Assembly: GCA_009602725.1 (NCBI GenBank)
Contig: WELB01000007.1
Location: forward strand, 293,116 to 354,803
Length of the DNA stretch: 61,688 nt
Direction of reading: 5' to 3'
Origin: Spirogloea muscicola
Lineage: Eukaryota; Streptophyta; Zygnematophyceae; Spirogloeales; Spirogloeaceae
Shown: positions 2,905 through 43,740 of the stretch, one piece after another
Layout: every line of letters begins with the position of its first letter
Position numbering within the stretch: the stretch's first letter is position 1
Translations under genes and position numbers: made by a program
Notes under the pieces: generated by a model
The model's database searches: none
Told to the model about the DNA's origin: nothing
What the model saw: the letters and a program-made list of their open reading frames with translations, nothing else

Positions 2905-2995
2905 CGCTATTGGCCCCTTCGGACCTTTGTCCATTTTATTTGGGCTGGCTGTTCACAGCCCTCGCCCACTGGAAGAGCCACTTCCTTTCTTTCAA
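2905..2995 (+). repeat. non-LTR retroelement 3' tail, solo copy (type D)
   Basis: This is an isolated copy of the dispersed 3' UTR. It has a GGACCTTTGTCCATT-like lead-in, then the hairpin GGGCTG (2942-2947) / CAGCCC (2956-2961), then a GAAGAGCCACTTC block and a TTTC-rich end. From 2996 to the end of prefoldin 1 at 3574 I see nothing coding. Confidence 0.65.
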
Positions 2996-3573
2996 AGCGA
3001 TACACAGCTCAATCAGTACCACACACCAAAATTGGTCTTACTGCCACTTGAATTCTGCAAAAGCAAGCCCAATGAACATGCCTATGTAGAAGAGCACGAT
3101 CTTCTTTCTGGGTTTCCCGCCAGGCTCTAATTTTCATGAATGACACAGCTCTGTTGTCTTGGTATGCTTCAGACAAGGCCTCCCAAGCTACTGGCCTTGT
3201 GTTTTGCCTGCTCAATTGGTAGGCCATCCCCCTCATACGGGCAGGAGTATGCAAGCTCAGTGAGCTGAAACGTAGCTGAATAATCTGTGGATCCCCATGA
3301 TAAGGTGTCTCGACAAGGGTCTCCTGTTGTTGCCATCTCTCACGTGAGCTCGAGCAGCACCTCTTATTGAGAAAGTGGACCTTACCTCCGTTTGCCGGGC
3401 TGGTAAGGTGGCTAACCTCCCCAAACGTTTGCTAATATTTGAACCACATAACAAAGTTACAAGCTGGCCCCCCTTGCCCCTCAACGTGCCTTCAGTCCTT
3501 GGCCCCCTCCTCTGGGCCTCTAGCCCCTTGTTGCTGCGATTGCCAGCGCACCATCCTCTCCAACACAAGCCGC

Positions 3574-5153
3574 TCATAAGGGCGCCATCATTACCTGTGC
3601 CGCCAATGCTGGCAATTGCTCCAGCAGCTCACGCATGCTCGCCTCCAGATCATGCAACGACTTTCTCAAGTGCTCCTGCGCTACCTGCACACATCACCAC
3701 CAATATATTGTTGCTTAGCAGACCTGACAATTGCCCAACCTTGCTGCATGCTGGTGCAACCCCTGCACTAGCAAAGCATGGACAGCAGCTCTTTTTGCAA
3801 CAATGTCCCCTACCCACCTTGGCACTCTCCAGAACGCTATCGCACTCCTCCATCTTCGAGGCCTGCTCCAACTTTATCAGTCCAGCACCTTCCAACACAA
3901 ATCTGCGTATTGCAAGTGGGCAAGTGCCAAGACCACACTATCAAGCGCGTACAGAAAAGCAAAGGCTACGCTTTTGTGTGAGTTGGAAAGACAAGTGTAA
4001 CAGCGCAACAAAGTATCAGAAAGGAACATAACATGGTGTGCCAGCCCAGTCAGTGGTGTGGAGCTTCATCTGGCCTGTCTTGCAGGAATGCATCTGCAAA
4101 GTGTTGTGGTTTTGTGGTAGGTGTCTACTAGCTTGATCCCAGAAATGGAACTCACGCTTTGCCTAAGCAAGCAGACAACCAGTCAGAGGGTCAGGTCGAG
4201 CTGCTTCCTCACACCTCACTTCACTACTCTTTCAGCAGGACAGCTTGGCCTCAGGACTCTGGCCGCAACAGCTCACCCTTGACAGGCTGCGCATTGGCTT
4301 TCACATTTTTTGAGCGATGTCGTACCATTACTAGATAAGCAGTACAGCTTTTGACAGGACATGGGCACGTAGGACCTAATGAATGCAGATGTGACCTGCA
4401 AGCACAGATCTGCAAGCACAGTGATGAAGGGTGATGCCTTCCACCTAACGGCTTGTATGTCCTTGTGTCAGTCGGCAGTAAGTCCAGTTCCTGGAGAGTC
4501 AATGTCGCCCTTTTCTTCTCTGCCGCTTTTGTGGCCATCTGCACTGTCACCTGCGGCTGAGGTGGTGGCAGATTAGTGTAGCCTTTGCTGGTACAGATTA
4601 CTAACGTGCAGCGGATGAACGACTGGCTTGGCGGCCTGTTTAGCAGGTCGTGTACTGCCGTGATCAACACAGACGTGGCCGACTACATAGGGCCGTCTGT
4701 GCCCAAGAACGACTACATTTCCGCCAAGATGGAGAATAGCCTGGAGGGAGGACCTGCTTCAGCTTGGTGCTGGTCTCAACAAGGCGGCCCTGCAGCTCCG
4801 CAAAAGCCTGCAGATCGAGCCTCGACTGCTGTCATGAGGAGGACCGAGTCACGATGATCTGATACAGAGGAATATCCGGCAGAATTTGGCAATGTGGAGC
4901 AGGCACTGGACCGGGTAGGACACAGGAGGGAAGGAGAGAGGGAGGGAGTGAGGGAGGGGGCCAGGGAGGTAGTGTGCAATCCAATCATCTGCAGGCGGGG
5001 TTTGCGTGCGCTGGCTGGAGCGAGAGGAGGGAGGGCAAGGAGCTGCTGTAGGTACTGGCCAGAGAGAGGGAGGGAGGGAGGAAGAGAGGAGAGAGTGCGG
5101 GGCGGGCCGGGCGTGCCTCGCGGCTGGCGGCGTCTGCAGCCATGGCGTGGCGC
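3574..5153 (-). CDS. PFD1: prefoldin subunit 1
   Basis: This is a beta-type subunit of the hexameric prefoldin co-chaperone, which holds nascent actin and tubulin for the cytosolic chaperonin. Resolved exons on the minus strand are 4754-4807, 4438-4550, 3818-3902 and 3574-3684 (stop 3574-3576), with phase kept throughout. The protein shows the family pattern in order: a first coiled coil (A-F-A-E-L-Q-G-R-L-V-E-T-S-T-K-L-K-Q), the T-L-T-L-Q-E-L hairpin strand, T-Y-K-P-L-G-G-R-F-V-L-E, and a second coiled coil ending R-E-L-L-E-Q-L-P. The length of about 125 aa fits the family. The first exon must hold only a few residues. The ATG at 5153 (MAADAA...) is the best candidate but is uncertain, so the upstream boundary is approximate. 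The intron after exon 4438-4550 appears to use a GC donor (AAG|GCATC). A purine-rich tract covers the upstream side. Confidence 0.88.
4920..5100 (+). repeat. polypurine (GGGA/GAGA) tract
   Basis: Long runs of G and A (GAGGGAAGGAGAGAG-like at 4926-4970, GAGAGAGGGAGGGAGGGAGG-like at about 5065-5095) are interrupted by mixed sequence near 4980-5035. The tract lies in the presumed first intron or promoter side of prefoldin 1, where it would read as a polypyrimidine tract. It has no coding function that I can see. Confidence 0.6.
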
Positions 5154-5319
5154 AGGCGACGGGGGGGCTGGGGGCGGGGCCCCGCCGCGGCCCAGCCCTG
5201 GAGATGCCTCTGCCGCCACCACAAAGCTCCCCTTCCCTGCCCAAGTACAAGAAGACAACGGGGCGCCCTAAGGGAAGCAAATGGCGCGCCCTGAGAGAAG
5301 AGGGGCTAGCAAACAGACC

Positions 5320-6530
5320 TTGTCCATTCCTTGGGCTTTAGATGAAGGGCTCGCCCATTGAGGATAGGGGCTGGAAAAAGCCAGCCCAAAGAAGAATGAG
5401 CAAAGGACGAGAAGGGGCCAGGGGAAGTACAAAGCCAGCCCAGAAAGGTATGGACAATGTCCGCAGGCCTCAAAGAAGTGGAGTGGCGAGAGAAGTGGCT
5501 CTCCCAATCGGGGCAAGTGCTATGAAAAGCGGCGAGCAGCGGCGAGCAGCGGCCCGCCGCCACGGGCAGCAGGGCGAGCAGCCTGGCTTCCAGCGGTCCA
5601 TGGCCCACGCCTTGCATCTGCGTGCTGGCCGTGCTCTCGCTGCGGCCTCCGGCTTTCGTCAGGGGGATAGTTTACCGGCAGCTAGTCTGTCGGATGTGAG
5701 GCTCCTCACTCGTAACTACTAAGTGGTCCATCCTCCCCCGTTCTGCCATAGCCTCTTCAGGCCCCGCAGTCGCTGCTTAGCTCGTAATTTGGCCCCTTCG
5801 AACCTTGTCAATTCTTTTCGGGCTGGCTTCTCACAGCCCTTGCCCCCATTGGGAGAGCCACTTCTTCTTTCAATGCAGCCTGGCTTCAACGTCGCCGGGT
5901 CCCTCGCCCAAGTCTTCCGGAAGCGCTTGGCCGTCTCTTTGCGGTCCCTAGCTTTCGCGGTCCACTTGCGCGCAGGCCGCGCTCTGGCGGCGGCCTCCGA
6001 CTTCCGTCAGGGCGACGTCTTTCCGCCTGCTAGCTATTTAGATTTGCATCTACTGACTAGAGGTTACTGAGAGCCCGCTTGCTGCTGTCTCAGTCCTTAG
6101 CACTCCGGCTCCTTCAGACCTTGTCCGTTCCTTTTGGCTGGCCTCTCCCAGCCACCAGTTAATCTGGCCGCACTTGCTGTGAAAAGAAGAAGAAGAAGTG
6201 GCTCTCCCACTGGGGGCAAGGGCTGTGAGAAGCCAGCCCGAAAAGAATTAACGAAGGTTCGAAGGGGCCACAATGACGGAGGGGCCCAAAAATGCTATGG
6301 CAGAACGGGTGGAGGATGGACCACTCAGTAGCTACGAGTGAGGAGCCTCAAATCCGACAGACTAGCTGCCGGAAAACTATCCCGCGACGAAAGCCAGAGG
6401 CTGCAGCGAGAGCACGGCCAGCACGCAGATGCAAGGCGTGGGCCATGGACCGCTGAAGGGAGATTGACAAACGCATGCGATAGACTTGGGCCCACGAGCC
6501 AGCGGCGTTGAAGTCAGCCGGCTCACTTTG
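5320..6530. repeat. stacked non-LTR retroelement 3' ends
   Basis: At least five tail fragments abut here. Minus-strand 3' UTR pieces lie at about 5340-5500. A plus-strand copy has its coding end at 5580-5722 (ends L-L-T-R-N-Y-stop) and a 3' UTR with hairpin GGGCTG/CAGCCC at 5820-5839. A second plus copy joins directly after its TTC-rich end, with coding end 5880-6070 (ends L-L-T-R-G-Y-stop) and hairpin near 6139. A minus-strand copy follows from about 6185 (its TTC repeats) to 6530, and its coding part carries the same L-Q-R-S-M-A-H-A-L-H-L-R-A-G-R-A-L-A-A-A-S-G-like peptide. None is intact. Confidence 0.75.
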
Positions 6531-6599
6531 CCTGCGGGACACAGAGCGCCGCGCAAGCCTGGCCAGCAGGTCGAGCCACTGGGACCCGGGAGCCCTGAG

Positions 6600-7850
6600 C
6601 CTCCAGGAAATGATGTCAGGCCCTTCTGGTTGGCTCTCCAACCACCTACGGGCCTCTTCCAGGTTGGAGGTTCTCCCTGCTCCTCACCACCTGCCGGCAG
6701 CTTGCCAGGGCCGCCATTCGCCCCTGTATCACTGGCGCCCTGCATTGCAGCCACCTGCTGGCCCTCGCTAAGACGACAAGCGGTGTGAGGTCCATCGCAA
6801 TGACGGAGGTCATCATGCGGCTGGTGACCAAGGCCATGTGCAACGAGCTGAAGCCCCAGCTGTCCGGCCAATATTCGCCCCACCAGTCTGGCGCGGGCAT
6901 GTCTTTGCCGGGCAGAGGCCCTCGTCAAACGGCATCAGCTTGACGTGCAGCCCTTGACATCGTCCCCCAATGAATATTCCTCGGGCTAGACTTGAATGTC
7001 TTTGACACAGTGGAGCGCAGCGATATCATTGAGCTGCGCAAGCATTCACTACGCTGGTCCCCTCCCTCCTCATGGCATATGGCCGTCCAGGGCAGCGCGA
7101 CTACTTCTCTGTGGTGGTCACCTCCTTTCTCATGGCCTATGGCTGTCCAGGGCCGCTGCTGTGGCAAGCATGGGAGACATGGAAGACGCTGCGGTCTACG
7201 ACTGGCACATGCTAGGGTGACCCCCTCAGCCCAAGTTTACCCCGGCTTGGTAAATTTGTGGGCACGTAGTACAATTAGAGCTTGCACCTCACCTCCTCTT
7301 TCCCTCCTACGCCAACGACACACAGACATTGTTGGCCCATCCGCAGAGGTCGTGGCTGCCTTCAGTCGTCCACTAATTGGCAACATGGGCCCGCAATTTC
7401 ACCCCTCAATCAGCGTGGCATAGTTCCCAAGCAGTCTTCCCATCCTCCAGCTTCCCCAAGGCTGCCAGAACTCCGGCACTTGGGCTGATTATCCATGAGG
7501 TCCCATTTTCCACACCATTTGGTAGAGGACTTCCGTGAATGCTCACAGAAGCACCTTGCCGCGATTGCTCCCTGCCAGCTGCAGTTGACATCTTTAGTTG
7601 CATAGATCCTCATCTGCATACCAAATTCGGGAATTTTGCCCTTCAAGCATATGCACGACGTGAGGACGTGATTTCAGCTAACATGGGCTTGCTAACAGCA
7701 CTTCGTCGTTCTTACGCAGTCGTGTGTCAGCCTCTTTGCAGCGAGCTCAGGCTCATGCTTTGCACCAGAAAGCTGGACGAGCCTTTATTCGTTGGCACAA
7801 GGCCAGTATCTTCTTTGTGCCGTCTGGTACATGGTCATCGCTGAACGACT
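6600..7850 (+). pseudogene. decayed non-LTR retrotransposon ORF (reverse transcriptase plus C-terminal domain)
   Basis: The plus strand encodes broken pieces of a LINE-type polyprotein. Near 6800-6870 a segment reads G-V-R-S-I-A-M-T-E-V-I-M-R-L-V-T-K-A, which matches the conserved reverse transcriptase block G-V-R-P-I-x-x-x-E-x-x-x-R-L-V-x-K-A. Near 6985-7030 follows L-G-L-D-L-N-V-F-D-T-V-E-R, the expected L-D-x-x-N-A-F-N-x-V block; its first Asp corresponds to a catalytic-site Asp in the family. The F-A-D-D-type block cannot be read, so the copy is dead. Further on (7560-7850) L-P-A-A-V-D-I-F-S-C-I-D-P matches the pre-terminal peptide of a minus-strand copy near 35,850. Frameshifts and stops are frequent. 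This relic ties the many short tails in the window to a reverse transcriptase. Confidence 0.68.
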
Positions 7851-8059
7851 CCTACTTGCTGACCCATTGAGAGCGTCGGCCTAGCAGCAGGTCATGTACA
7901 TCTGCAGATGTGCTTGTCTTTGTACTTGGCCACCCAGGCCTCCCATCACTCAACACGTCTTCCCTATTGGCCGCTCTTGCCTCTAAGCAGCAGGCGGCCT
8001 CCAGCAAAGAATGTAGGTACTTGGCAGCTCTAGCCCTCCCGCAGGAAAGACACTGTTCT

Positions 8060-8600
8060 CTCAAGAGGGCGCGATGGCTTTGAATGGCCAGCCCAACAGA
8101 GGGAATGGCAAGGTCTGCAGGGGCCCGCAAGCGCAAAAACGCACAGCTACGCAAGTTGCTATTCCGACTATTAATCGCTCAGATATCCTGGTCAGCAGCC
8201 GCACGTCAGAGTAGCTTGCAGCCGGAATAGTGTCCCCCCGGCGGAATCTGGAAGCTGCAGCCAGACCGCTGCCCACCAACGCACAGCAACAGCCTGAGGA
8301 CGCTGGACGTGAGACTGACAGGCGCATGGGAACCCCTGAGCGCGCGACCCAGCGGCATTGAAGTGGGGCTGCTCATCTGCTGCCGTCGGCGTCGGGTGAT
8401 CACACGCCAGGCAAGCTGCTATAGAAGATAAGAGAACGCGGCTGCTCATATCAAGGGGCGGGTGTGACAGCCAGTCAACTGCATACAGGAAAATCTGGAG
8501 AGCATCTACACTACACGGAGCTGCAGGAGAAGAAGAAGAGGAGGCGCGTGGTGCGCATGAGATGGAAGGGTGGCCAAACCGAGCCAATATAATTTTCACT
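8060..8600 (-). repeat. retroelement tail fragments
   Basis: On the minus strand 8180-8400 contains F-N-A-A/M-P-L-G-R-like coding remnants, then L-L-T-R near 8190-8210. A 3' UTR-like GGTTGGGCTGGCC string lies around 8085-8100. At about 8545-8580 a diverged copy of the GCGC-x-GCGC motif (GGCGCGTGGTGCGCATGA) occurs in the same orientation as the type F tails described elsewhere. Confidence 0.5.
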
Positions 8601-9532
8601 TGAAGGGAAGGCAAAAGGACAGCAGAGAACGGGGCTCACAACGTGAAGCTCTAGGCTAAGAGGGGTTTCAGGTGCAGGGCGGAGACTAAGCAAGAGGGGA
8701 GCTTTTACTACCCTCGAGTTTGCGCGCACAGATTCAACAGGCCAACTTTGGAAGCCCGAGCACCTCCTCGGAAGCCAGTAGCCTGACGATGATGAGAGCT
8801 GTTTGCGCAAGGGGCGATGGGTGTTCGAGGCCTGCCCATAGGATTGACAAGGACTTCAGGGGCCGGAAAGTGCAGACCTTGCAGCTACGCAAGTGGCTGC
8901 TACGAGCGGATGATCATTCATGCGCACACCTTGCGTTCTCTCTAACACTCGCCACTCTCTCGCAAGGCACGTCAGCCCTCCACTTGGACCAGCACAACAA
9001 GATGACGTTGCCCTACTCCACCTGCCTCAACACCTGCGCTGTAATTGAGAGGCTTGGACAGGAACACGCCCTGCGTAATCCTTCTTCCTCCCCTCCAACC
9101 CACTGTATTTACTTCTTAAGCGAAGCTTGAGCAATGTAAAAGCGCACCTGAAATGTTCTGTGTGAATTTGGCTTGCCTACAGAGCCGCTCATTGACGACA
9201 GTACACTGAAATTTTTCCAAATCCTGCAAATACATGGCACATTATTCTTCTTGCCTGGCTGCTGCGCGTCTAACGCTGCTCCAGGGCTCCAGAAGCACAT
9301 TGCTTTACACAGTGCCATTACCGTCTACGTCGAGGAGTGCCTGTCCAATCACAGGCAGATGACAGTACAATAATGAACACTTGCGCATGTCTCAACTTGA
9401 GCTCATGCTGCTAAGGTCCACGCTCCCGGCTCACACCCGAAGGCTCACATCAGATGGCATCCACTCCATCTTCCGGTTGACAGACTGCTCCTTTGAGCAG
9501 CTTCTAGCCAGGGCTGCACTACGCTGGCTTTG
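8601..9532. other. intergenic stretch, no gene recognised
   Basis: No exon with a recognisable family, tRNA or repeat copy is seen here. The part next to 9533 is probably the 3' UTR and downstream region of the minus-strand acyltransferase gene. Short plus-strand open frames exist but show no family pattern. Confidence 0.5.
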
Positions 9533-13140: not shown

Positions 13141-13249
13141 GGCGGGTCGGGGGAAAGGAAAAGCGGCTGCTGAAATGAAAGAATCGGCTGTGAAATGCCA
13201 GCCAGATGCATACAGGTGTTCCTGACGGAGCCAAAGGCTAGGCAGACAG

Positions 13250-13370
13250 GGCGCCCTCAATACCCCCGTGTCAGCAGTAGGAAGTCAGATGAGCTGAGGG
13301 GAGGAAGAGCAACCCCGCTGCGCAAGCCAGAGGCTGCTGCAAGGGCGCGACCAGCGCGGCGGTGCAAAGC
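13250..13370 (-). repeat. retroelement coding tail, cut by the assembly gap
   Basis: Minus-strand reading gives A-L-H-R-R-A-G-R-A-L-A-A-A-S-G and then L-L-T-R-G-Y-stop at about 13258, the shared C-terminal peptide. The upstream part is lost in the run of N. Confidence 0.75.
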
Positions 13371-13575
13371 NNNNNNNNNNNNNNNNNNNNNNNNNNNNNN
13401 NNNNNNNNNNNNNNNNNNNNNNNNNNNNNNNNNNNNNNNNNNNNNNNNNNNNNNNNNNNNNNNNNNNNNNNNNNNNNNNNNNNNNNNNNNNNNNNNNNNN
13501 NNNNNNNNNNNNNNNNNNNNNNNNNNNNNNNNNNNNNNNNNNNNNNNNNNNNNNNNNNNNNNNNNNNNNNNNNNN
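13371..13575. other. assembly gap (205 N)
   Basis: This is a run of N. The left flank is a minus-strand copy and the right flank a plus-strand copy of the same retroelement tail, so the gap sits between inverted copies. Confidence 0.97.
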
Positions 13576-13965
13576 CGCATGCGCTTGGCCGTCTCGCTGC
13601 AGAGGTCTATGGCCCGCGCGCTGCACCTGCGTGCAGGCAGAGCCCTCGCTGCTGCCTCTGGCTCTGGCCAGGGGACCCGCTTCCAGGAACGCAGTCTCTC
13701 TGACCTGAGGCTGCTTAGCAGGGGTTACTGAGTGCTTCGTAGCTGCTTCGTTTCTTTTCTGTGCTTGTTGTTCTTCGTACTTCCCCTGGCCCCTTCTCGT
13801 CCTTTGTACATCCTTTTCTGGGCTGGCTTTTTCCAGCCCCTATCCTCAATGGGCGAGCCCTTCTCGCTTTATGGGCGAGCACTTTCTTAGCACTCCGGCT
13901 CCTTCAGTCCTTGTCCATTCCTCTGGGCCTCTCACAGCCACCAGTCAATCTGGCCGCGCTTTCTT
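13576..13965 (+). repeat. retroelement tail with 3' UTR, plus a second UTR fragment
   Basis: The coding end runs from 13576 to the stop at 13731 (R-M-R-L-A-V-S-L-Q-R-S-M-A-R-A-L-H-L-R, ending L-L-S-R-G-Y). The 3' UTR follows with a perfect hairpin GGGCTGG (13820-13826), loop CTTTTT, CCAGCCC (13833-13839), then GGGCGAGCCC at 13851-13860. From about 13885 a type C fragment follows (CCTTCAGTCCTTGTCCATTC ... CCACCAGTCAATCTGGCCGCG). Confidence 0.78.
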
Positions 13966-13994
13966 CTTTCGTTGAGGAATGGAGTGCGTAATGA

Positions 13995-14420
13995 GTAGTG
14001 GAGGGCCTGATTGGCCTAGTGCTAAGGCAAGCACATCGACAGCATGTACATCACCTGCCGTTAAGCTGACCCGCTCAGTAACCACGAGTAAACACGTGGA
14101 GGTCGCCACCTGAAAGAAATGGCTCGCCCATAGGAGACGAGGGGCTAGCAAAGCCAGCCCAGAAAAGAATGGACAATATCTGCAGGCCACAAAGGCCACA
14201 GACCGGTGCCAGAAAAGAAAACACACCAGGACACGTAATGATGCAAGGTGGATGCTCAGTATCCACAAGTGAGCAACAGCAAATCAGAGTAAATCGAAGC
14301 AGGAAAAGCGGCACTCCGCTGAGACCCCGAGGCAGCAGCCTCCTGAAAGAAGGGCTCACCCATTGAGGATAGGGGCTGGAAAAAGCCAGCCCAAAAAAGT
14401 ATGAACCGAAAAGGGAGGCG
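13995..14420 (-). repeat. stacked minus-strand retroelement 3' ends
   Basis: A type B 3' UTR (GGAGGGCCTGATTGGCC ... GTTAAGCTGACCCGCTCAG) lies at 14000-14105. A UTR with CCAGCCCAGAAAAGAATGG is at about 14120-14240, and a type E or A end is at 14265-14410. The last has hairpin GGGCTGG (14373-14379) / CCAGCCC (14386-14392). Between 14420 and 14810 there is only a short GAGAGCCACTTCC-like remnant near 14678-14690 and GC-rich sequence. Confidence 0.65.
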
Positions 14421-15635: not shown

Positions 15636-15639
15636 TCGA

Positions 15640-22440: not shown

Positions 22441-22489
22441 CTGCCTCCGGCAGCGTGGCCGCGATGCCGCACTCCGCTGGTGTCCAGCC

Positions 22490-23520
22490 CCCCTTCTGGT
22501 GCTGTTTGTTCTTCGTACTTCCTCTGGCCCCTTCTCGTCCTTTGTTCACTCTTTCTGGGGCGGGCTTTTTCCAGCCCCTATCCTCAATGGGCGAGCCCTT
22601 CATCCTCTGGAAGCGCTTGCCCAAGCATCAGACAGAGAGGAATGGCGCGCCCTTACAGAAGAGGTGCTGGCCAAGCCAGCCCAATAGCTGGCTTCTAATA
22701 GAGAGGCCAGCCCAAAGAGAAGACAAAGGGGCACGGGCCAGAGTCGTTGCTGCAGGTGAGGATGAGCGTCGCAAGACATCAAGAGAAGTGGCACTCCCCA
22801 ATGAGAAGAGGGGTTGGCAAAGCCAGCCCAAAAAAGAATGGACAATGTCCAAAGCCAAAGAAAGAGGAGCCGGAAAAAGGACTACACTACAAAACACTGC
22901 AGAACACACAAACGATGCAGAGGGCAGCTCAGTACTCACGAGTGAGCAACATCAGGTCTGAGTAGCTCGCTGCAGGGAAAGAGGCACTCCGCCGAGATCC
23001 AGAGGCGGCGGCCACAGCACGGCCTGCTCGCGTGTGGACGGCGTGGGCAAGGGAACGTTGAAGCGATACGGCCAGGCGCATGCGGAAGACTTGTGCAAGC
23101 GAACCGGCGGCGTTGAAGCCGGGCATCGCCCCTGGCAGACCCGGCCGCCGGTCAATGGCCTGGCGGGCAAGCCGCTGAATGAGATCCAGCCAGCGGCTGC
23201 CGAAAGCCCCGTGTACATCCATCGCCAGGGCCGCGTATACGTCACCAACCGGGTGATCAGCATATTTTCGCTCCGTGCCCCGGGCCGCCAGGCCGACCGC
23301 GTGCCCTGCAAACGACGCCGATCGGGTGGGATTGGCTAGAAAGAAGAAGGGCTCGCCCATTGAGGATAGGGGCTGGAAAAAGCCAGCCCAGAAAAGAATG
23401 AACAAAGGACGAGAAGGGGCCAGGGGAAGTACAAAGAACAAGCAGCACAGAAAAGAAACGAAGCAGCTACGAAGCACTCAGTAACCCCTGCTAAGCAGCC
23501 TCAGGTCAGAGAGACTGGGT
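22490..23520. repeat. retroelement tail cluster
   Basis: A plus-strand type A 3' UTR lies at 22490-22605. Minus-strand UTR fragments follow at 22640-22950; one hairpin has an AAA loop and a G-U wobble (GGGTTGGC/GCCAGCCC near 22811-22829). A minus-strand coding tail runs from about 23340 down to the stop near 22960. It includes A-L-A-M-D-V-H-G-A-F, then F-N-A-A-G-S-L-A-Q-V-F-R-M-R-L-A-V-S-L-Q-R, ending L-L-T-R-E-Y. Another minus-strand type A UTR is at 23340-23510. This is the longest readable coding tail of the family in the window. Confidence 0.78.
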
Positions 23521-23574: not shown

Positions 23575-24600
23575 AGGGCTTTCGGGTCTTCTTCTTCTTA
23601 GCGCTTTAGGCCCCTCCGTCATTTGGGGCCCCTTCGAACCTTTGTCAATTCTTTTCGGGGTGGCTATTCAAAGCCCTTGCCGCCATTGGGAGAGCCACTA
23701 CTTCTTCTTCTTTCGGGTCTCGGTGGCTGTAGACCTGTTGTTGGCCCGGCTTGCGCAGCACGCTGTGTCCCGCATGCGTTTCGTTACTTTCGCTGCTGGC
23801 CTCTGTGCCGGTTACGCCCGTTTCACCTCTCGAGCTGACCAGCGGCGCCGGGAACAGCACTTCCTGGATGCCGGAAAGATGAACTACAGTCTGCCAAGCC
23901 CGTGGCTCCGTCATGAACACCTGTATGCATCTGGCTGGCCTTTTACAGCCGCTCTGTGCATGTCAGCAGCCGCATCCTCTGAGGCGAGGCGAGCAGGTCG
24001 ACTTCAACGCCGCTGACTCGCTAGCCTGTCCATATCACGCCTGCGGGCCATGCCCACACCTTCCATCTGCGTACTGGCCGTGCTCCAGCTGCAGCCTCTG
24101 GCTTTCGTCAAGGAGATCGCTCTCCTGCGGCTAGTGTTTCTGACTTGCGGCTACTAAATAGAGGTTGCTAAGTGACTATCATGAATGGTCATTTACCATT
24201 TATACTTTACAGTGCTTTTCGGCCCTGTTCGGACCTTGTCAACCTTTTTGGGCTGGCTGTTCACAGCCCTTGCCCCATTGAAGAGCCACCTGCTTTTTTT
24301 TCTGAAAAGCAGCATGTGTCCAACGCCTGGAAGAAGACAGGAAGACTGTTCCAGTTGGGGGCGATAGCTTTGATTGGCCAGCCCAGAGAGAGAATGAACA
24401 AATGTTCATCAAATGCCGAGGAACCCTGGAGTGATTTTGCTTATTGATATACCTAAGCGAGTGACCCGGCGCATTGAAGCAACCTACTCGCCCTGCTGTC
24501 CTCGATGCCAGAGTACTGCTGGTTGCGGTAGCCCCTGGAGAGACATGGTTCACAGGGGTCGCAGAGGGCTGTGAAAAGCCAGCCCAGAGAGAACTCCAAA
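23575..24600. repeat. retroelement tail fragments, both strands
   Basis: A plus-strand type D 3' UTR (CCCCTTCGAACCTTTGTCAATTC, then GGAGAGCCACTACTTCTTCTTC) lies at 23625-23715. A more decayed plus-strand coding tail and UTR are at about 23900-24300, with hairpin GGGCTG/CAGCCC near 24249-24269. Minus-strand pieces containing GGCCAGCCCAGAGAGA and GCCAGCCCAGAGAGA are at 24340-24600. Confidence 0.6.
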
Positions 24601-29241: not shown

Positions 29242-29335
29242 GGCGGCCTGCCGACTCCACGGTTGAGGCCCGTCGGGGAAGCTGCCGTGCTGCCGTGAGG
29301 GAGCCCACGCGGCGACCGTCTGTGGCTCTGTGGAG

Positions 29336-29372
29336 AGAAGGCGCGCGGTGCGCATGAAATCGAAAGGGAGGC
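29336..29372 (-). repeat. type F retroelement tail motif
   Basis: This is a copy of the GGCGCGCGGTGCGCATGAAAT...GGGAGGCCA motif, which recurs at about 8545, 36107, 36815, 42377 and 43752. It can fold as GCGC-x3-GCGC. Confidence 0.6.
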
Positions 29373-29499
29373 CAATGCTGGCCTCACGAAAGTCCTGTTA
29401 CCTGGGTGACGAGCTGGCTAAGGGGGACACCAAACATCCCCGAGTGAGCACATGCACATCTGACAAGCTATACTGAGGCGCCAGAACACTGTCTGCCAT

Positions 29500-29860
29500 G
29501 AACACCTGTATGCATCTGGCTGGCCTCTTACAGCCGCTCATTTAACATCAGCAACCGCATCCTTTCCCGGAGTGTGGCCGGGCAGACTCGTTTCCATGAT
29601 GTCAACTCCTCTCGGGCTGGCTGTTCACAGCCCTAGCCTCCTACGGGGGAGAGCCACTTCCCTGCCTTTCCTTGTCCACTCTTTTGGGCTGGCCTCTCCC
29701 AGCCACCAGTTAATCTGGCCGCGCTTGCTTCATTTCCTCGTTCAGTACTTCAGGCTGGCTGGCTTCTCGCCACCATTGCCTCACAGTGAAAGAGTTGTTT
29801 CTCTTCTGCTGTCCAAATATATACCTGGGCTGGCCTCTAACAGCGCGTTAAAGCGAGCCG
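29500..29860 (+). repeat. head-to-tail retroelement 3' UTR fragments
   Basis: Three plus-strand UTR pieces follow one another. The hairpin GGGCTG/CAGCCC at about 29615-29633 ends in GGGAGAGCCACTTCC. The hairpin GGCTGG (29687-29692) / CCAGCC (29699-29704) is followed by ACCAGTTAATCTGGCCGCGCTTGC. A third, weaker copy follows from about 29750. The 29860-30199 interval holds no gene I can name and may be the 3' UTR of the minus-strand gene. Confidence 0.65.
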
Positions 29861-35051: not shown

Positions 35052-35289
35052 GGCCGCCGGCGGAGCGGGAGAGGCGGGGGCCGCCGCCGCAGACGGCGGC
35101 AGGAGCGCCGCCCCCCGAGGAGCGCTGTCCCGAACGGAGCAGCGGCGCAGCGGCGGCGCGCGATGGGGCGGCGGCGGGGCGGTGGGCGCTTGCGAGACGG
35201 CCGCAGGTGCCTGCCAGTGTTGATGGAAGAGTGCGGCTGCTGCCGTTCGAGGGCGAGCGTTCGGTGGGCGAGCCAGCGAGGGGCACGCA

Positions 35290-36060
35290 CATCACAGCTC
35301 TTCCAGTCGTCCTTTTTTGGGTTGTTCATCCTTTTTGGGCTGGCTTCTCCAGCCGCCATCCTCAACGGGCGAGCCCTTCTCTCTTCCAGTCGAGGGCTAT
35401 GGCTTTTGATTGGCCAGCACAGAGAACAGAGTGCATGAAGTGAATGAAGGGGAAAATTTTACGTGTATTTGAAACAAACGAAGGCCACATGGCCAAGTAC
35501 AAAGGCAAGCACATCTTAAGACCTACATAACCTACAGTAAATTGACCCGCTCAGAAACCACGGGTCAAAACATAAAGGTCGCTAACCGATGCCTGGATAC
35601 TAGATGGCAGATACGGAGCCCTTCTGCCACCAACTAGAGCTCGCCCAGCTTTCTGGTGCAAAGCATTAGCCTGAGCACGCTGCAAACAGGCCGAAACTCG
35701 TCGTCGCAACAACGACAGATAAGCAGCTGGTAAGCCCATCTCAGCCGGGAACACATCTGCATGTCGTGTGTAGCCTAGATTGGCTATGTTTGGAAGGAGA
35801 GTAAGGAAACGAGGACCTAAGCAGCCGAAGATGTCGATTGCCGCTGGCAAGAGCTGATCACATCGGGAAATCGGGAATGAAGGGAGACGGGAGAGATGGC
35901 GAGCGGTGCTCATAAGACGCCGAATGCTCAGAGAAGAGGAGCTGGCCAAGCCAGCCCAAAAATAATGGACAAGCGGCCGAATGCCCTTAGAGGAGGGACT
36001 GGCCAAGCCAGCCCAAAAAGAATGGATAATTTCCAAAGCCAGAAAAGGTGCCGCATAGGA
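35290..36060. repeat. retroelement tails flanking the UBE2O-like gene 5' side
   Basis: A plus-strand UTR lies at about 35310-35395 (hairpin GGCTGG/CCAGCC, then GGGCGAGCCCTTC). A minus-strand type B copy runs 35430-36036, with a readable coding tail: L-P-A-A-I-D-I-F-G-C-L-G-P, then R-R-R-V-S-A-C-L-Q-R-A-Q-A-N-A-L, ending L-T-R-G-F-stop at 35551. Minus-strand UTRs with GGCTGGCCAAGCCAGCCC are at 35935-36020. Confidence 0.75.
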
Positions 36061-37480
36061 TCAAAGAGTGACGCATTTCGAGCCAATACACTTGAGAAGA
36101 GAGAAGGCGCGCGGTGCGCATGAAATTGAAAGGGAGGCCAGTTCTAGCCTTACAAATTACTTGAGAAGGGGAGTGAGGGCGCCGTGCAGCCGCGGGCGGC
36201 ACTCGGCCTTCTCACTACCTCGTCTCATCGGCTGGCGACGGCCAGCAGCCTACGCGCCCAAACCCCTCGACCGGAGGCCAGGCCCGCCACGCTGCCCGCC
36301 CACCTTCCCCTCCCCTTCCTCAGCCTGCTCGAGAAGGCGCGGCGCTTTGCCCTCTGCATCGTCTCTATGTTCTGCAGTGTTTTGTGGTGTAGTCCTTTTT
36401 CCGGCTCCTCTTTCTTTGGCTTTGGATATCGTCCATTCTTTTTTGAGCTGGCTTTGCCAGCCCCTCTTCTCTATGGGCGCGCACTTCTGACGAGAGGTTA
36501 CTGAGAGTTCGCTTACTGCTGTCTCAGTCCTTAGCACTCCGACTCCTTCAGACCTTGTCCATTCTTTTGGGCTGGCCTCTCCCAGCCACCAGTTAATCTG
36601 GCCGCGCTTGCTTTCTCATAAGACGCCGAATGCCCTTAGAGAAGAGGGGCTGGCCAAGCCAGCCCAAAAATAATGGACAAGACGCCGAATGCCCTTAGAG
36701 AAGAGGGGCTGGCCAAGCCAGGCCAAAAACAGTGGACAATATCCAGAGCCAGAAAAGGTGCCACATCGGATCAAAGAGTGACTCATTTCGAGCCAATTCA
36801 CTTGAGAAGAGAGAAGGCGCGCGGTGCGCATGAAATTAAAAGGCAGGCCAATGCTAGCCTTACAGATTACTTGAGAAGGGGAGTGAGGGCGCCGGGCAGC
36901 CGCGGGCGGCACGCGGCCTTCGTTCAAGAAGAAGAAGTAGCTCTCCCAATGGGCGCAAGGGCTGTGAGAAAGAAGAAAGAAGTGGCTCTCCCAATGGGGG
37001 CAAGGGCTGTGAGAAGCCAGCCCGAAAAGAATTGACAAGGTTCGAAGGGGCCAAACTACGAGCTAAGCAGCGTTCAAGAAGTGCGCGCCCACAGAGAAGA
37101 GGGGCTGGCAAAGCCAGTCCAAAAAAGAATGGACAATGTCCAAAGCCAAAGAAAGAGGAGCCGGGAAAAAGGACTACATCACAAAATACTGCAGAACACA
37201 GAGACGATGCAGAGGGAAGCTCAGTACCCACGAGTGAGCAACACCTTCGTTCCACCTCGTCTCATCGGCCGGCGACGGCCAGCAGCGCGCCGGGGAACCT
37301 AAGGGCCCAAACCCCTCGACCGGAGGCCAGGCCCGCCACGCTGCTCGCCCACCTTTCCCTCCCTTCCTCAGCCTGCTCGAGAAGGCGCGGCGCTTTGCGC
37401 ACGACATGAAGAGGGCGGCCACATCAAGCCCGTGCACCTCTGTTCAGGCCAAGGAAGCTTGGCGCCGCCTCGACGGGCTT
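36061..37480. repeat. local segmental duplication built of retroelement tails
   Basis: Two diverged copies of a compound block are present. The block TTTCGAGCCAAT-CACTTGAGAAGAGAGAAGGCGCGCGGTGCGC ... GGGGAGTGAGGGCGCC occurs at 36077-36200 and 36783-36905. The block CCTCGTCTCATCGGC-GGCGACGGCCAGCAGC ... GAGAAGGCGCGGCGCTTTG occurs at about 36220-36350 and 37255-37400. Between and beside them lie plus-strand (36390-36610) and minus-strand (36615-36780, 36925-37240) 3' UTRs with GGGCTGGC-AAA/CAA-GCCAGCCC hairpins. Confidence 0.72.
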
Positions 37481-39245
37481 GAAGAAACACCGCGTCCACA
37501 TTGAGAGCAGTGGCTATGAAGGCCAGCCCAAAGGAAGGGACAAGGTCTGAAGAGAGAGAGGTCTGAAAGGGCCGAATGGCGCAAGAAGCAAGATACTAAA
37601 CGCTAAGACGTCAGCAAGTAGGCTCTCAGTAACCTCTAGTCAGTAAATGGAGTCGGAATATCTGCGCGACGCGCGGCCTACCAACGGCCGCAAGAAAGTG
37701 GCTCTTCTAAAGAAGTGGAGCGTATTTTGGGTAATGGAGGGCCTGAGTGGCCAAGTACAAAGGCAAGCACATCGACAGATGCACATCACCTCCTGCTAAG
37801 CTGACCCGCTTAGCGACCACGAGTCAGCTCCTGGAGGTCGCCAACTGATGCCCAAATACAGGACGGCAAATGACAAGCCTTTTTGCCACCAGCTAAAGCA
37901 AAGGGGGCGAGGGCTGTGAAAGGCCAGCCAGGAATAGTGGACAAGGGAAGATCAGGCTCACTTCAGCGGCTTGGGCTTTCCGGCCTCTTCAATTCTCCCG
38001 CTCTCCCGCGCATGTGGTCTTCAGTCTCACTGCAGCGTCCTTTGGCTCACGTCCTGTATCTGCGAGCTGGCCATGCCCTGGCTCTGCTGCCTCCAGCTGT
38101 TGCCAGGGAACTTCTAACTTTGAATTTATTTGCCTGCTAGCATTCGACTTGCGGCTGCTAGTTAGGAAAAACTGAGCGGCTCGAGTATAGCTTGTGGGGT
38201 ACCTTGCTATCCCACTCCTCTGTAAATGTTATTCATCTGTGGGCTGTGCCCCTCGAAGCCCTCGCCGCCTTTCAAAGTTGCTGCTTCATATCCGGCGCGC
38301 ACTGCGCAAGTGATCAAAGGCAGGCCAAAATGAGCCAGCACACTGTTCAGGCGCAATCTAGTGCAAAGAATGGGGCCTCCAAAGAAAGCAAAGCCCTAGG
38401 CTAAGAGTCTGACATGAAGGGCCTTCCAGAATACTTTCCAGAAGGGGAATCCAGCGGCTTTTTAAGACGGGCAAGGGCTGTAGAAAGCCAGCCAACAGTA
38501 GGATGAACAAGGCTGTAGTTCTTCCACAACAAGGGGCAATGGCTGTGAAAGGCCAGCCCAAAATCAAAGAACGGGCAAGGTCCAGAGTTGCCGGAAATAA
38601 GTACACCACACAGCTAGTGCTACTGGGCGCGCAATTTCTTTCTATTATGGGGGCAGATCAACAAACCCTGATCAACGGCCGCAAGTCAGAGTAGCTTGCG
38701 GACGTAAAGGTGTCGAAGATGTAGGAGTCTAAAAGCGTTTAGTACTCAAGGTAGCAAGTGACCACGACGTACGGCAATTCAGTACTTCCTGATTTATAGC
38801 CATTGCCCCCAATAATCTGACAATCGGGCTGACCTTTCACAGCCATCGCCCCCATTTGGAAGACCACCTTCCCTCAAAGAGAGAAGAGAAGGGAAAGGAC
38901 TGGACAAGGCGCCTGTCCAGGCACTTCAGAAGCTCTCTCAGCAGGTAAAAGCGTGGATAGGGAGATGGTGGGCCTGAGAAGCCAAGCATTATGGCAAGTA
39001 CGTCAACAAAAGTACATCACCTGTTGCTAAGCTGACCCGCTCACTGACCGCAGGTCACCAAGTAGAGGTCGCCAAATTTGATGCCCGAGTACTGGACGGC
39101 GACTTGCAGGCCCTTCTGCCTCCAAGCTTGTCCAGCTCTCAATTCCAAAGCCTGAGCTCGCTGCAAAGAGGCTGACACATGACGTTGCAAAGACAATAAG
39201 ATATGCCGCAGGCAAGGCCAATTCAGCAGGAAGCACAGCTTCAGG
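37481..39245. repeat. older retroelement fragments
   Basis: Minus-strand type B tails are at about 37735-37905 and 38965-39240. The latter has the coding remnant V-S-A-S-L-Q-R-A-Q-A-L-E-L-R-A-G. A plus-strand coding tail is at about 38000-38165 (S-L-Q-R-P-L-A-H-V-L-Y-L-R-A-G-H-A-L-like). Minus-strand GGCTGTGAAAGGCCAGCC pieces are at 38465-38560. No host gene is recognised. From 39246 to 39798 there is a plus-strand type E relic (about 39465-39590) and then a CpG-rich promoter-like region. Confidence 0.6.
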
Positions 39246-39798
39246 CGTGCACTATGATTCAACAGCGGCGGTGTTAGCCAGTCGGTTGTGCATGTGCTCA
39301 CTTGTGTGTACTATAACCCACATTCAACTGCGGGGTGCGCTTTTACCTCTGCCTCCCATAGCACTGGGCTTCCGTTCGTGGGACTCATTCGTTTGCACCA
39401 AACTGCACCAGCTTTTGCCTCAATTGGTGTGGTATGGCCTCCCTATCTGCGGCTGCGAATTACTCGCATTTGCTGCTGCTCACCTGTGGGTACTGAGCTT
39501 TCCTTTGCGTCCTCTCGTGTCTAGCTGTGTAACTTTTCTTTGCGGCACCTGTTTTTGGCTCTTTGAATTGTGTCCATTCTTTCTTATCTCATGTCAAGCG
39601 CACCGGCTCGCCTTCTCACGTCATATCCTAGATCAGCCATACGTCGAAGACCGGACAGCTGCCCATGGTTGCCTCCTCCGCCACAAAGGTTTCCGCCAGC
39701 TCCCGCCCTCGCCGCTCTCCCCGCGGGACTCCTCCCGCTCGCCCTCCCTCGCTGCCGCTGCGCCCGCCCCACGGTGCCATGCCCCCATTCCCCGCGAG

Positions 39799-41860
39799 AT
39801 GAAGCCGTCGCTCTTCTTCTCCGGCTCCCTCGACCGCACGCTCCGAGCGCAGCTCGACGCTCTGCCCGACGCTGGCCGCTCGCGCCACTCTCTGCTCTGC
39901 GGCCCACCTCGGAGGTGTGCTCTCCGAAACCCCTGCCCTGGCCTGTCGCCTCACCCAGCACGTCAACTCAGAAAACAGGACTTACTCCCATTGTCGTCCC
40001 ATGGAAAGTGTGGAGCATGCTTGTGCCAGCGTGTACTTCTCGTTGGCTACAGTCCGTGCTTGTCGACCCGGGAACATGCACCACTAGTTGGGAGGGAGGT
40101 CTGCCGAGAAGTAAAAGACCTCACAAGCCACAGGCGAGCAGCACAAGCTCACAAGCATCGTCTGTCATGACTGCAGTGGCAAAACGTCTCTGCTATTCAA
40201 CTTTGCCTGCAACGTCTGCCTGCAGAATGGTGGAGGAACGGCAGTCATTATCTGCAAGCGGCAGAAACTGGAAGCATCCCCCCCCCTCCTCCCGCCAGTA
40301 AGGAGTGCCGGGTCGTCCTAAGATCCTTCGAAGGGTCCTCCTAAGGTCATTTGAAGAAGAGCTCAGTGATCTATGACCATCAAGCATGTGCCACCATTGG
40401 CGACTTTTCCAGACATGTTACAGACACTTATTTAGCTCTTGGCACAGACGCAGCAAAGCTGGAGCTGCTGCACGTGATGCCAGATGGAACAGAGATACCA
40501 GCAGAAAGCAGATGATGACACCGTGGACATCACGCTGAGCTTAAGAGTTGGATATTTGACAGCAATCAGAGGAGCCTACACACGAGCTGCTGATGTGCTT
40601 AAGAAGTCGAATATATAAAAGACTGATTTATGGTGACTTTGTTAACTACACTTGAGCTGCTAATGTGCTCAAGGTCTCGGATACTCATATCAAGCCTGAT
40701 CAGTTGACTCTGTTACCTGCAGGGTGCAGATATTCAATCTGATGCATATGAGAAAGTAGCTCTGAGGTAGACCCTGCACTGGGACTCTTCGTTATTGTGG
40801 CCTACACTCCATGATGGCCACCCTTCAGAACGCTCTCCTGCAATAAGTCAAGGACAGACATTGCGCGTCAATTTTTATGCAGTCTGCTTATCTCCTGCTC
40901 TCCTTGCTCATATTTGCTGCCATGCAGATCCAGAGTGAGACCCGGTCTTGTCGTTTCAGGTACTTGAGCGATGGGCAAGAACTGCGCAAGTACCTAGCTT
41001 GCTTGCACCTTTCCAGTCAGCTGCCCAGTCTCATCATTGTGGATGACTTCTATGAATACTGCAGCGAGTGAGCGCTGTCCTTCAGCTCCTTATCCTTGTA
41101 ACCTCGCTGGGCACATGCCATGACCTCGTCGTCAGCAAGTGCCAGATACTTATCACAGCCATCAAGGTGTGAAGGTCAAGGGCGTAGCTAATATCTCCAC
41201 ATACAATCACCAACAACTCGGTCCAGAGATGTAGAGCATGGGCTTGTAATGCCAAGGGAGATGAGCTTTGCAAAGATGCTGGCGCTGCTCCACGAGACAG
41301 TCAATCAGATCAGGTGCTACTGGTGGTGCTGAATCTGGTCGGCAGGACATGGGCTGCTCTGTATGCAATCTGGATTTGCTTTTGACAACTTGCATTGTCG
41401 AGGTCAAGCTGCCTACACCTGTTCTTAAGCTTCAGCATATAACACTTGCAGGCTTTTTGACAAGCATCGATGAACATGTACTGATCCTGATGTTTTGCGT
41501 GAAAGTGACATGCTAGGATCTCCGAGGTCTTGTGAGCTGCTAATCTCTGATGTGCTCGTTGGAGATGGCCCGCGCTTGTTGTACATATACAAGCGATGGA
41601 TTGCTGTGACCTACACAATTCAAGGTGATGATGAGGTGCATTCACATAAGAAGCATCGGAAGACTCAGTGCTGCCTGCTGGCCGTTACTGGGAATCATAT
41701 GCTTGTGAGAATGGCACCCTTTTGCCCAGCTGTTGACTGCAATGCTTGCCGTGTGCAGAAGCTGGAGAAGGTCTGCACAAGCTGCAGCAGTCCAAAGGCA
41801 CCCTGCAGGAAGGATACTGTCTGTGGGCTGCCATTTTCTCCATGTCTCAAGGATACTTGA
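39799..41860 (+). CDS. RecA-fold P-loop ATPase, SWSAP1-like
   Basis: Exons are 39799-39914, 40177-40297, 40723-40755, 40928-41067, 41227-41313 and from 41527, with phase kept. The N-terminus is M-K-P-S-L-F-F-S-G-S-L-D-R-T-L. The Walker A motif is built across an intron (G-P-P-R-S joined to G-K-T-S-L-L-F). A strand G-G-T-A-V-I-I-C-K-R-Q-K-L-E follows. Walker B is L-P-S-L-I-I-V-D-D-F in exon 4. Exon 5 has M-S-F-A-K-M-L-A-L-L-H-E-T-V and exon 6 has C-E-L-L-I-S-D and L-L-Y-I-Y-K-R-W. The pattern fits RecA/Rad51-paralog-like small ATPases such as SWSAP1, which in animals pairs with the SWIM-domain protein SWS1 in homologous recombination. That role here is inference. The first in-frame stop after exon 6 is at 41858-41860, but a donor at 41625 (GTGATG) could lead to a different end. 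The last part is Cys-rich and unlike the family. Confidence 0.72.
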
Positions 41861-41924
41861 CTTTGCGGGAGGTGCAAACCGCAAGTGGTGCCTGAGTGAG
41901 ACTCGGTCTTACAGAAGGGAGACC

Positions 41925-43440
41925 TGCTCTTGCAGACCTTGTACATTCCTTTGGGCCTCTCACAGCCACTGCCTTACATGGGAAGAGCTATTTCTTTCCT
42001 CCACCGCCTGGCCACCTGGTCGATGCTTGGTGTTGAAGTCGGGCCGGTAGCTTAAAGCATGCTGGCGTTCCCGCAAGCATTGGTTGCTTCTTACACCCCT
42101 TTTCGTTTCTATCCCGGTTCCAAAAGGGCGACGCTTTCCTGCCCTCTAGTCATTGTAATCTGCATTTGCTGACTAGAGGTTATTGAGCGCCCACTCGCAG
42201 AAGTCACAGAGAATAGTGCTGTGCTTTTGGCGCCTCCTGGCTGTTTCAAACCTTGAACAATCCGTCGGGCTGGCCTCTCCCAGCGTTTTGCCTTCCAGTG
42301 GACGAGCTCTTTCCTTCTTCTTATGCTCACTGCGCGATGACTGCCGCAGCCGACTGCGCCGGCAGAGTGGGCGAAGGAGGCGCGCGGTGCGCATGAAAAC
42401 ACTGTTCGAGGGGTGCAGACAGTGGGGCTACATGAAACGAAGCCGTATGCTAGGGTGGCCCTATGCTAAGGTAGTAGCAGTGTGATGTTAGTGCCAACGA
42501 GTGAGCACCTTGGCGCGTAGGAATGGTGAGCGTGCTTGCAACCCAACTCGCACAAAAGCTGGGCTGGCCATTTCCCCCCCAACCTTTGGAGAGAGAGCGC
42601 GGCCAAATTGACTGGTGGCTGTCAGAGGCCAGCCCAAAGGAATGGACAAGGTCTGAAAGGAGCCGGATGGCGTAGAAAGAAGAAGTGGCTCTCCCCATGG
42701 GGGCGAGGGCTGTCAAAAGTGTGTGATGGCGCAGAAAGCAAGGTACTAAGTGCTAAGACGGCAGCAAGGGGACTCTCAGTAACCTCTTTGGAGAGAAGTG
42801 GCTCTCCCAATGGGGGCAAGACGAAAGTGCTCGCCCAGAGAGAAGAGGGGCTGGCAAAGCCAACCCAAAAAGAATGGACGATGTCCAAAGCCAAAGAAAG
42901 AGGTGCCGAAAAAGAACTACTCTACAAACCACGAGACGATGCAGAGGGAAGCTCAATTTCCACGAGTGAGCAACATCAAGTCAGAGTAGCTCGCTGCAGG
43001 GACAGAGGCACTCCGCCGAGACTCGGAGGCAGCAGCCATAGCACGGCCTGCTCGCGTGTGGACGGCGTAGGCAAGGGAGCGTTAGAACGAGACCGCCAGG
43101 CGCATACGTAATACCTGTGAAAAGCCAGCCCGAAAAGTATTGACGAAGGGTCGAATGGGCCACAACGACGGAGGGGCCTGAAAAGAAGAAGTGGCTCTCC
43201 CAATGGGGGCAAGGGCTGTGAGAAGCCAGCCCGAAAATAATTGACAAGGTTCGAAGGGGCCAGACTACGAGCTAAGCAGCGACTGCGGGGCCTGAAGAGG
43301 CTATGGCAGAACGGGGGAGGATGGACCACTCAGAGCTACGAGTGAGGGAGGAAAAGAAGTACGAAGAACAAGCAGCACAGAAAAGAAACGAAGCAGCTAC
43401 GAAGCACTTAGCACTTAGTAACCCCTGCTAAGCAGCCTCT
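41925..43440. repeat. dense retroelement tail array
   Basis: Plus-strand UTRs are at about 41930-42000 and 42240-42320, with a coding end L-T-R-G-Y-stop near 42170-42186. A type F motif is at 42377-42400. Minus-strand copies run from about 42560 to 43440. They include a type E UTR with hairpin GGGCTGGC/GCCAACCC (wobble in the RNA) at 42848-42868, a coding tail down to about 42990, type D UTRs near 43120-43260 ending at TTC repeats, and a type A UTR at 43340-43440. Confidence 0.72.
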
Positions 43441-43625
43441 CCGAAAAAGAGTTCGGAGAGCTCTACTTCTTGGACTACGTGGCCACACAGGCCACGCACT
43501 ACGCCCGCAGGCCCACCTGTAGGGAGGTGGCTGTCGGCTCAACCGACGCTTAGTGTTGTGGTATCGTTCCGGTTACATTGTCTCGGCCCTTGCCGCCAGG
43601 GGCGCCCGGTACCGTAGAATGGAGT
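43441..43625. other. short unassigned segment between repeats
   Basis: This segment does not match the other tails I can see. The plus strand reads L-S-E-K-E-F-G-E-L-Y-F-L-D-Y-V-A-T-Q-A-T-H-Y-A-R-R-P and stops at 43551-43553. It could be a more 5' part of an element or a captured fragment. Confidence 0.35.
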
Positions 43626-43634
43626 GATAGAGAG

Positions 43635-43740
43635 GGTCCTTTTTCCGGCTCCTCTTTCTTTGGCTTTGGACTTTTTTGGATTTAGGGTTTAGGGTTTAGC
43701 GAAAGCCAGCCCCTGTTCTCTATGGGCGCGCACTTCTCTG
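43635..43740 (+). repeat. type E tail interrupted by a telomere-type array
   Basis: The left part (CCTTTTTCCGGCTCCTCTTT ... GGCTTTGGA) and the right part (GCCAGCCCCTGTTCTCTATG ... GCGCGCACTTCTC) match the tail at 36403-36487. Between them, where that copy has its lead-in and the 5' arm of the hairpin, this copy has CTTTTTTGGA followed by TTTAGGGTTTAGGGTTTAG (43681-43699). Confidence 0.8.
43681..43699 (+). repeat. interstitial telomere-type repeat, (TTTAGGG)2TTTAG
   Basis: Two full units and one partial unit of the plant and green-algal telomere heptamer lie in one orientation inside a retroelement 3' UTR. Confidence 0.9.

Follow-up and report, generated by a model that had tools for sequence, protein, structure and literature searches.

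A conserved 3' hairpin in R2-like LINEs of Spirogloea muscicola and its probable recognition by the cognate reverse transcriptase

By following up an earlier reading of the bare letters of one stretch of DNA (the original prediction), we confirm that dozens of dispersed tail copies with a shared hairpin lie in a 61,688-nucleotide piece of the genome of Spirogloea muscicola (GenBank assembly GCA_009602725.1, contig WELB01000007.1, positions 293,116 to 354,803 of the forward strand), here called the window. The tails are the 3' untranslated regions (UTRs) of long interspersed nuclear elements (LINEs), and the best explanation of the hairpin, to which we give a probability of about 70%, is that it is recognized by the reverse transcriptase (RT) of the element that carries it. 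The hairpin of the transcript would be bound by the cognate RT, and the 3' end, lying at a set distance from it, would thereby be placed in the active site, so that target-primed reverse transcription would begin on the element's own RNA. Clades G and H, which are also LINEs of this genome, appear to have stems of their own at a similar distance; if so, the RNA of each clade would be marked by its own hairpin.

Position, folding and conservation of the hairpin

The tail lies downstream of a long open reading frame (ORF) whose product ends in SDLRLLSRGY or a similar sequence. In families A to E, the stop codon is followed by a 3' UTR of about 104–152 nt with one 17–18-nt hairpin (stem core GGCUG) and 26–31 nt from there to the 3' end, which mostly reads ...CUUCU or ...CUUCUUCU. 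Averaged over 15 families, the hairpin lies 83.6 nt (SD 18.2) after the stop and 28.3 nt (SD 1.9) before the 3' end, against which it must be set that we placed the 3' ends where copies part, with an uncertainty of a few bases and several families represented by one or a few copies. The hairpin site is the sole place in the UTR where folding lies well below that of shuffled sequences: with 60 shuffles each, 32-nt segments have a mean z score of –3.06 when they end 20 nt from the 3' end, of –3.02 at 24 nt and of near 0 across most of the remaining UTR, two G tails being weaker. A stem of at least five pairs forms at this site in 14 of 16 tails, compared with 5–14% of shuffles. Among 13 non-G families, selected as hairpin carriers, between-family identity is 0.85 in the hairpin (shuffled 0.57) and 0.69 in the part after it (shuffled 0.55), and falls to 0.61 in the first 50 nt of the UTR (shuffled 0.58). 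A conserved 3' structure is common to diverged families, as in 3' tails of the stringent type.

The distribution of the hairpin was followed in tails picked by place from lists of protein matches, with preference for open frames of great length and for a range of identities: 20 from the 150 D-type matches, 12 from the 150 G-type, 7 from the 150 E-type and a further 8 of the A/B/C type. GGCTG with its pairing partner is present in 34/35 A–E tails (D-type 19/20, A/B/C-type 8/8, E-type 7/7); in three of the E tails the script matched an upstream GGCTG first, and the main hairpin is visible on inspection. The three copies L069 to L071 were left out of this count; L069 and L071, the latter being the same copy as L072, carry the hairpin. 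G-type tails have a hairpin of the form GGCC-loop-GGCC in all 12 cases, including four (L096–L099) that adjoin open frames of 1267 amino acids (aa). In the H type, AGGCTA/TGGCCT stem variants occur in several of the 13 copies listed, the rest being degraded or joined to other sequence; these tails end in GCGCACCGCGCGCCT(T/C)CT and have another small GC hairpin close to the extreme end. A near-constant 3' spacing, an unrelated upstream UTR and clade-specific stems together fit an enzyme that grips the hairpin and thereby guides the 3' end to its active site, a mode of action described for R2 (PMC10499050, PMC12222951) and, as regards binding of the cognate stem-loop, for ZfL2 (PMC4176376).

Two rival explanations bear on these observations. 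The main one is that the hairpin is a signal for 3'-end formation or stability of the transcript, as in histone mRNAs, and that the RT starts at the resulting end without reading the hairpin. A 3' end that is precise in family A and near-constant from the hairpin in 15 families is equally expected from such a signal, and the inspected tails have no poly(A) at the 3' end, with the exception of an E copy near position 1022 (+) of locus L051, whose tail breaks off early and runs into about 14 A, a form seen in none of the others. However, a single host factor would not be expected to read different stems in each LINE clade of one genome, and the spacing is longer than that of histone hairpins; we judge this explanation unlikely. 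The other rival assigns the hairpin no function and has families swapping their 3' ends by template switching or conversion, with the hairpin carried along. Copies are indeed nested and inserted into each other, which makes exchange conceivable, but the hairpin persists where identity in the upstream UTR has dropped to roughly that of shuffled sequence, and the spacing is kept also in the G clade despite its different tail sequence. We regard exchange as very improbable.

Pairing versus primary sequence

Several observations weigh against recognition of a paired structure by the RT. When 20 family rows, chosen because they bear the hairpin, were aligned, RNAalifold returned this hairpin as the only consensus fold (–10.26 kcal/mol), with a covariation term of just –0.17. 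The covariation score of 0.085 compares with a shuffled mean of 0.054 and was equalled or exceeded in 28 of 500 shuffles. In the 20 rows the five core pairs make up 100 cells, all of which are paired, three as wobbles, and three of the pairs never vary; covariation is almost silent because the core stem pairs scarcely vary. Within A–E the pairing pattern is one of conservation, not covariation, and the original prediction was right that no full two-sided compensatory change is seen, as far as these five core pairs are concerned. A covariation analysis of the kind it had proposed returned the hairpin as consensus, with statistical support for pairing nearly absent within the clade. The stem test, which allows one G-U, is failed by D3 (two wobbles) and G1 (four pairs). 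Two existing copies depart from the hairpin: the tail of L073 has lost it, and that of L070, whose element is otherwise intact, has a single mismatch in the stem. The hairpin of A–E is absent from the G-type's own tail in the 12 examined, the lone script match (L100) lying beyond the tail. The original prediction had held that full-length elements without the hairpin would count against a role in recognition; such elements exist in the G clade, whose full-length frames are open, and they have a different hairpin of their own. Finally, the 5' arm GGCTGG is invariant in 20/20 family rows, so the ligand could be a sequence and not a structure.

This last point is the basis of a third rival, in which the RT reads the primary sequence UUUUGGGCUGGCU...CAGCC and pairing is incidental; the invariant GGCTGG and the negligible covariation are what it would predict. 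Against it, the 3'-arm changes in the core of K (UAGCC) and D3 (UGGCC) preserve pairing, as G-U and U-G, and the G and H clades maintain a stem with other letters. Patterns searched in the whole assembly (153.1 Mb in 471 contigs) point the same way: a pattern left open to pair-preserving transitions at two 3'-arm positions gave 2871 matches, compared with 2273 for its mirror image, left open to pair-breaking changes in the 5' arm, and among the first 100 matches listed per pattern, 34 and 7, respectively, depart from the usual form. As the two arms are reverse complements, a simple mutation bias is an unlikely cause of this excess. The variants are not independent events, however, since the majority probably go back to a small number of source families, and many of the matches are probably shared by descent. 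A ligand consisting of sequence alone is distinctly unlikely.

Recognition of the hairpin by the cognate RT, as proposed in the original prediction, is thus favoured by its location in the 3' UTR after the stop, local folding, its retention in diverged UTRs and its constant distance from the 3' end, and disfavoured by the covariation result and the G clade. A second, weak stem may exist 3' of the hairpin, where columns 32–38 of A1 could pair with columns 44–50 (CU..YYY-N5-GGG..GAG) and 84% of cells are paired, its covariation score being equal to that of shuffles.

Lined up between clades, the stems read GGCUG/CAGCC, GGCUG/UAGCC (K), GGCUG/UGGCC (D3), GGCUA/UGGCC (H) and GGCCA/UGGCC (G), each separated from the next by a single pair-keeping step. 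We offer this putative compensatory series as a lead. The register across clades was chosen by us, MAFFT places the cross-clade arms out of register, and when letters were re-dealt among the five lineages all pairs were kept 0.6 of the time per pair, which is not significant; these points tell against the series. It is possible, though on balance doubtful, that the recognition hairpin moved stepwise between LINE clades in the order A–E, K, D3, H and G, alongside the RT and with the stem kept 26–33 nt before the 3' end, which would amount to a readable self-recognition code in R2-like LINEs free of a fixed insertion site. A search of a limited set of papers returned none on covariation in LINE tails, which does not prove that none exists.

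The elements and their copies in the window

The elements are LINEs, that is, non-LTR (long terminal repeat) retrotransposons, with an RT domain, variable 5' truncation, a fixed 3' end and target-site duplications. They have a single ORF of about 1270–1360 aa; at two loci retrieved through protein matches, the element measures about 4.3 kb and contains one long ORF, the two proteins being 99.9% identical over 1358 residues. The host genome has 68 places that match chlorophyll a/b-binding proteins, and one exon matches Lhcb-type chains in the PDB, in keeping with a green alga or a relative of one. First-look searches of this genome with the C-termini yielded 19,278 (D-type), 21,824 (A-type), 5,476 (G-type) and 12,254 (E-type) candidates, sets that probably overlap and of each of which 150 candidates were scored; at least six scored D-type copies have open frames of 1386–1433 aa. 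No LTR was seen in these elements, in which no separate LTR search was made. The genome search also brought up several near-identical RT matches with open frames of 1237 aa, which are putative LTR retrotransposons.

Pfam RVT_1 matches three of the ORFs (E values 2.3e-13, 7.6e-16 and 9.5e-19). When a joint ORF profile was compared with the solved structures of the PDB, three R2 proteins ranked first (1.2e-12, 2.9e-10 and 3.8e-10), followed by the next chain at 0.0084 and LINE-1 ORF2p at 0.016, so that among solved structures the RT is closest to R2; a separate PDB profile search with the C-terminal region gave no R2 match. N-terminal C2H2/C2HC-like fingers were matched, all under curated cut-offs, and a finger was also matched in the R2 alignment. 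The CCHC knuckle of LINEs with a restriction-like endonuclease (RLE) has the spacing CX2-3CX7-8HX4C (PMC5678591); we found C-x-C-x11/12-H-x3-C instead, in the four sequences, out of five, that extend over that place. By motif reading, KX2KY occurs in three of five aligned sequences (the other two have KxxHY and KxxKH) and the D residues are conserved. Judged by motif, an RLE is probable, and we call the elements R2-like LINEs, a term that implies no clade membership. Insertion at the 28S rDNA site, as in the R2 clade proper, was not found among the copies, which are scattered and nested with diverse flanks, the rDNA itself lying outside the search. No report of RLE LINEs or of LINE 3' tails in green algae was found in the limited set of papers searched, which does not prove absence.

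Tails without the rest of the element are 5'-truncated copies from ordinary target-primed retroposition. In family A, 60 matches reach the 3' end (two loci overlap, so that two copies are counted twice); one is the reference, and the remaining 59 break off on their 5' side at 31–752 nt from the end, shorter copies being under-sampled because most loci were fetched with a 100-nt tail. Of the copies with both flanks, 34/57 share the identical last base and 12/57 are one base short (46/57 within 1 nt); the position of the 3' end was tested in this way for family A only. Direct repeats of at least 6 nt stand at the edges of 21/57 copies, compared with a mean of 3.9 and a maximum of 9 in 200 re-dealings of the flanks. 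Since any LINE leaves tails behind when its target-primed reverse transcription is truncated on the 5' side, the hairpin is not needed to explain why only tails spread.

A covariance model based on 20 family tails, of which 3 come from the window, finds 43 tail copies in the window (both strands) at E ≤ 0.01 and 51 at E ≤ 1; the E values below come from this search. A loose hairpin pattern occurs 66 times; in 60 dinucleotide shuffles it averages 20.2 occurrences and never exceeds 29. The copies lie on both strands, many on the minus strand. All seven stems listed in the original prediction were found where it had put them, except that one range, 42848–42868, overshoots its stem by two bases, and the lead-in followed by the hairpin and a ATGGGCGAGCC or GGGAGAGCCACTTC block is visible in the stretches inspected. 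Its two wobble forms need correction, since both had been read on the plus strand and the copies lie on the minus strand: the stem at 42848–42866 contains a true U-G wobble (GGGUUGGC/GCCAGCCC on the sense strand), whereas that at 22811–22829 (GGGCUGGC/GCCAACCC) contains a C-A mismatch. The range 2905–43740 that it gave for the copies does hold them, yet others lie outside, such as an old E-type tail at 243–299 (+, E 1e-4). This tail sits inside an apparent intron-containing gene (121–1740, +), which judged by eye apparently encodes a secreted protein with EGF-like cysteine repeats. Rfam at gathering scores found no known RNA in the window and ARAGORN no tRNA, no other search for short interspersed elements (SINEs) being made.

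Several copies retain coding sequence. A family A copy at 5589–5869 (+), with the ORF C-terminus, stop, 3' UTR, hairpin (5820–5839) and 3' end CTTCTTCTT, is inserted within a C-family copy and has a 13-nt direct repeat, GCAGCCTGGCTTC, at both edges, 5 nt beyond the 3' end. Another family A copy, 88% identical, holds the C-terminus and tail at 6190–6595 (–), with its hairpin within 6192–6249. A family B copy at 13576–13864 (+) comprises the ORF C-terminus (13576–13728), 3' UTR and hairpin (13820–13839), and a family D copy at 22782–23333 (–) the ORF C-terminus (23333–22932), UTR and the hairpin with the C-A mismatch on the sense strand (22829–22811). An RT remnant of a G-type LINE, with stops and 31% identical to the D-type ORF, lies at 6671–7471 (+), and G-clade tails at 7909–7973 (+, with its own hairpin GGCC-ACCCA-GGCC) and 35449–35513 (–). 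H-type tails are found on the minus strand at 29326–29431, 36092–36197 (stem AGGCTA/TGGCCT, 3' end GCGCGCCTTCT), 36802–36907 and 42363–42470.

Further tails can be grouped by family. Family B is represented at 5340–5397 (–, E 5e-16), 14345–14402 (–, E 5.5e-17) and 23342–23399 (–, E 7e-17) and, as covariance-model matches, at 22548–22605 (+) and by a B-like tail at 35327–35383 (+). Family A has a short tail of 80 nt at 23627–23706 (+) and matches to the model at 36976–37033 (–) and 43185–43242 (–), with an A-like copy at 29604–29663 (+). Family C tails lie at 6125–6180 (+, E 1e-4) and, by the model, at 29676–29733 (+, hairpin 29687–29704), 36559–36616 (+) and 42588–42645 (–); family E tails at 13157–13214 (–, E 7e-9) and 29507–29564 (+, by the model); a family K tail, with the stem GGCTG/TAGCC and one G-U, at 14113–14170 (–, E 8e-16); and a family F tail at 24240–24295 (+, by the model). 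A further tail copy at 2932–2987 (+, E 2e-11) has the hairpin GGGCTG-8-CAGCCC at 2942–2961. The model also places family D tails at 36435–36488 (+, hairpin 36447–36461), 37076–37130 (–) and 42820–42876 (–, hairpin 42866–42848, with the U-G wobble on the sense strand), and in one more, at 43668–43737 (+, E 9e-4), the 5' arm is replaced by TTTAGGG repeats. Short interstitial telomere-like TTTAGGG runs adjoin LINE copies at 43681–43700 of the window, in the 5' flank of locus L113 and at L062. Elsewhere in the window, a putative gene from 44090 onwards (+) resembles, judged by eye from a motif, a poly(A) polymerase gene, and 50086–50509 holds an array of 20 overlapping repeat copies with spacings in multiples of 6 (12, 18 and 36 nt).

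Comparison with known systems

How a LINE chooses its own RNA has been worked out in a few animal elements. Here, one genome holds many young families with matched proteins and tails, combining long frames, a compact hairpin, near-constant spacing and two or three alternative stems, and these matched families make it possible to swap tails between them and ask which part is read.

UnaL2 and the ZfL2 elements are L2-type LINEs with another type of endonuclease than the elements described here. Like ours, UnaL2, ZfL2-1 and ZfL2-2 have a stem-loop near the 3' end; theirs is family-specific and required for retrotransposition, and in the two zebrafish LINEs it is the cognate 3' stem-loop that is needed and that is bound by the tail-binding regions of the proteins (PMC4176376). 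In ZfL2 the loop gives specificity, whereas here, judging from sequence, the 5' arm is the fixed part and the loop differs between members of the clade.

R2 (R2Bm and R2Tg) resembles our elements in providing the best PDB matches of the ORF profile, and an N-terminal C2H2-like finger is weakly matched here. R2 proteins bind a core of the 3' UTR (PMC10499050, PMC12222951), and in both systems a structured element lies close to the 3' end, with a further stretch leading from it to the terminus (in R2Tg, the 3' 67 nt; PMC12222951). However, R2 inserts site-specifically in rRNA genes, whereas the copies described here are scattered and their flanks look diverse. The R2 cores consist of two helices, with a pseudoknot in R2Tg, in contrast to one 17–18-nt hairpin and a weak possible second stem, and an A-rich tract leads to the active site in R2, whereas the end is mostly C/T-rich here.

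A further parallel is found in the tails of monocot L1 elements (ME1 lineage) and maize SINEs, in which a hairpin in the last ~45 nt is conserved while the rest has diverged and for which stringent recognition was proposed (PMC3747384). Those tails belong to the L1 clade, with compensatory stem changes reported, whereas the RT here is R2-like and there is almost no covariation within the clade. The same source proposes that stringent-type tails are possibly ancestral for L1 in green plants (PMC3747384); if recognition by the cognate RT holds true, our observations would extend tails of this type from green-plant L1 to R2-like LINEs of a green-lineage host.

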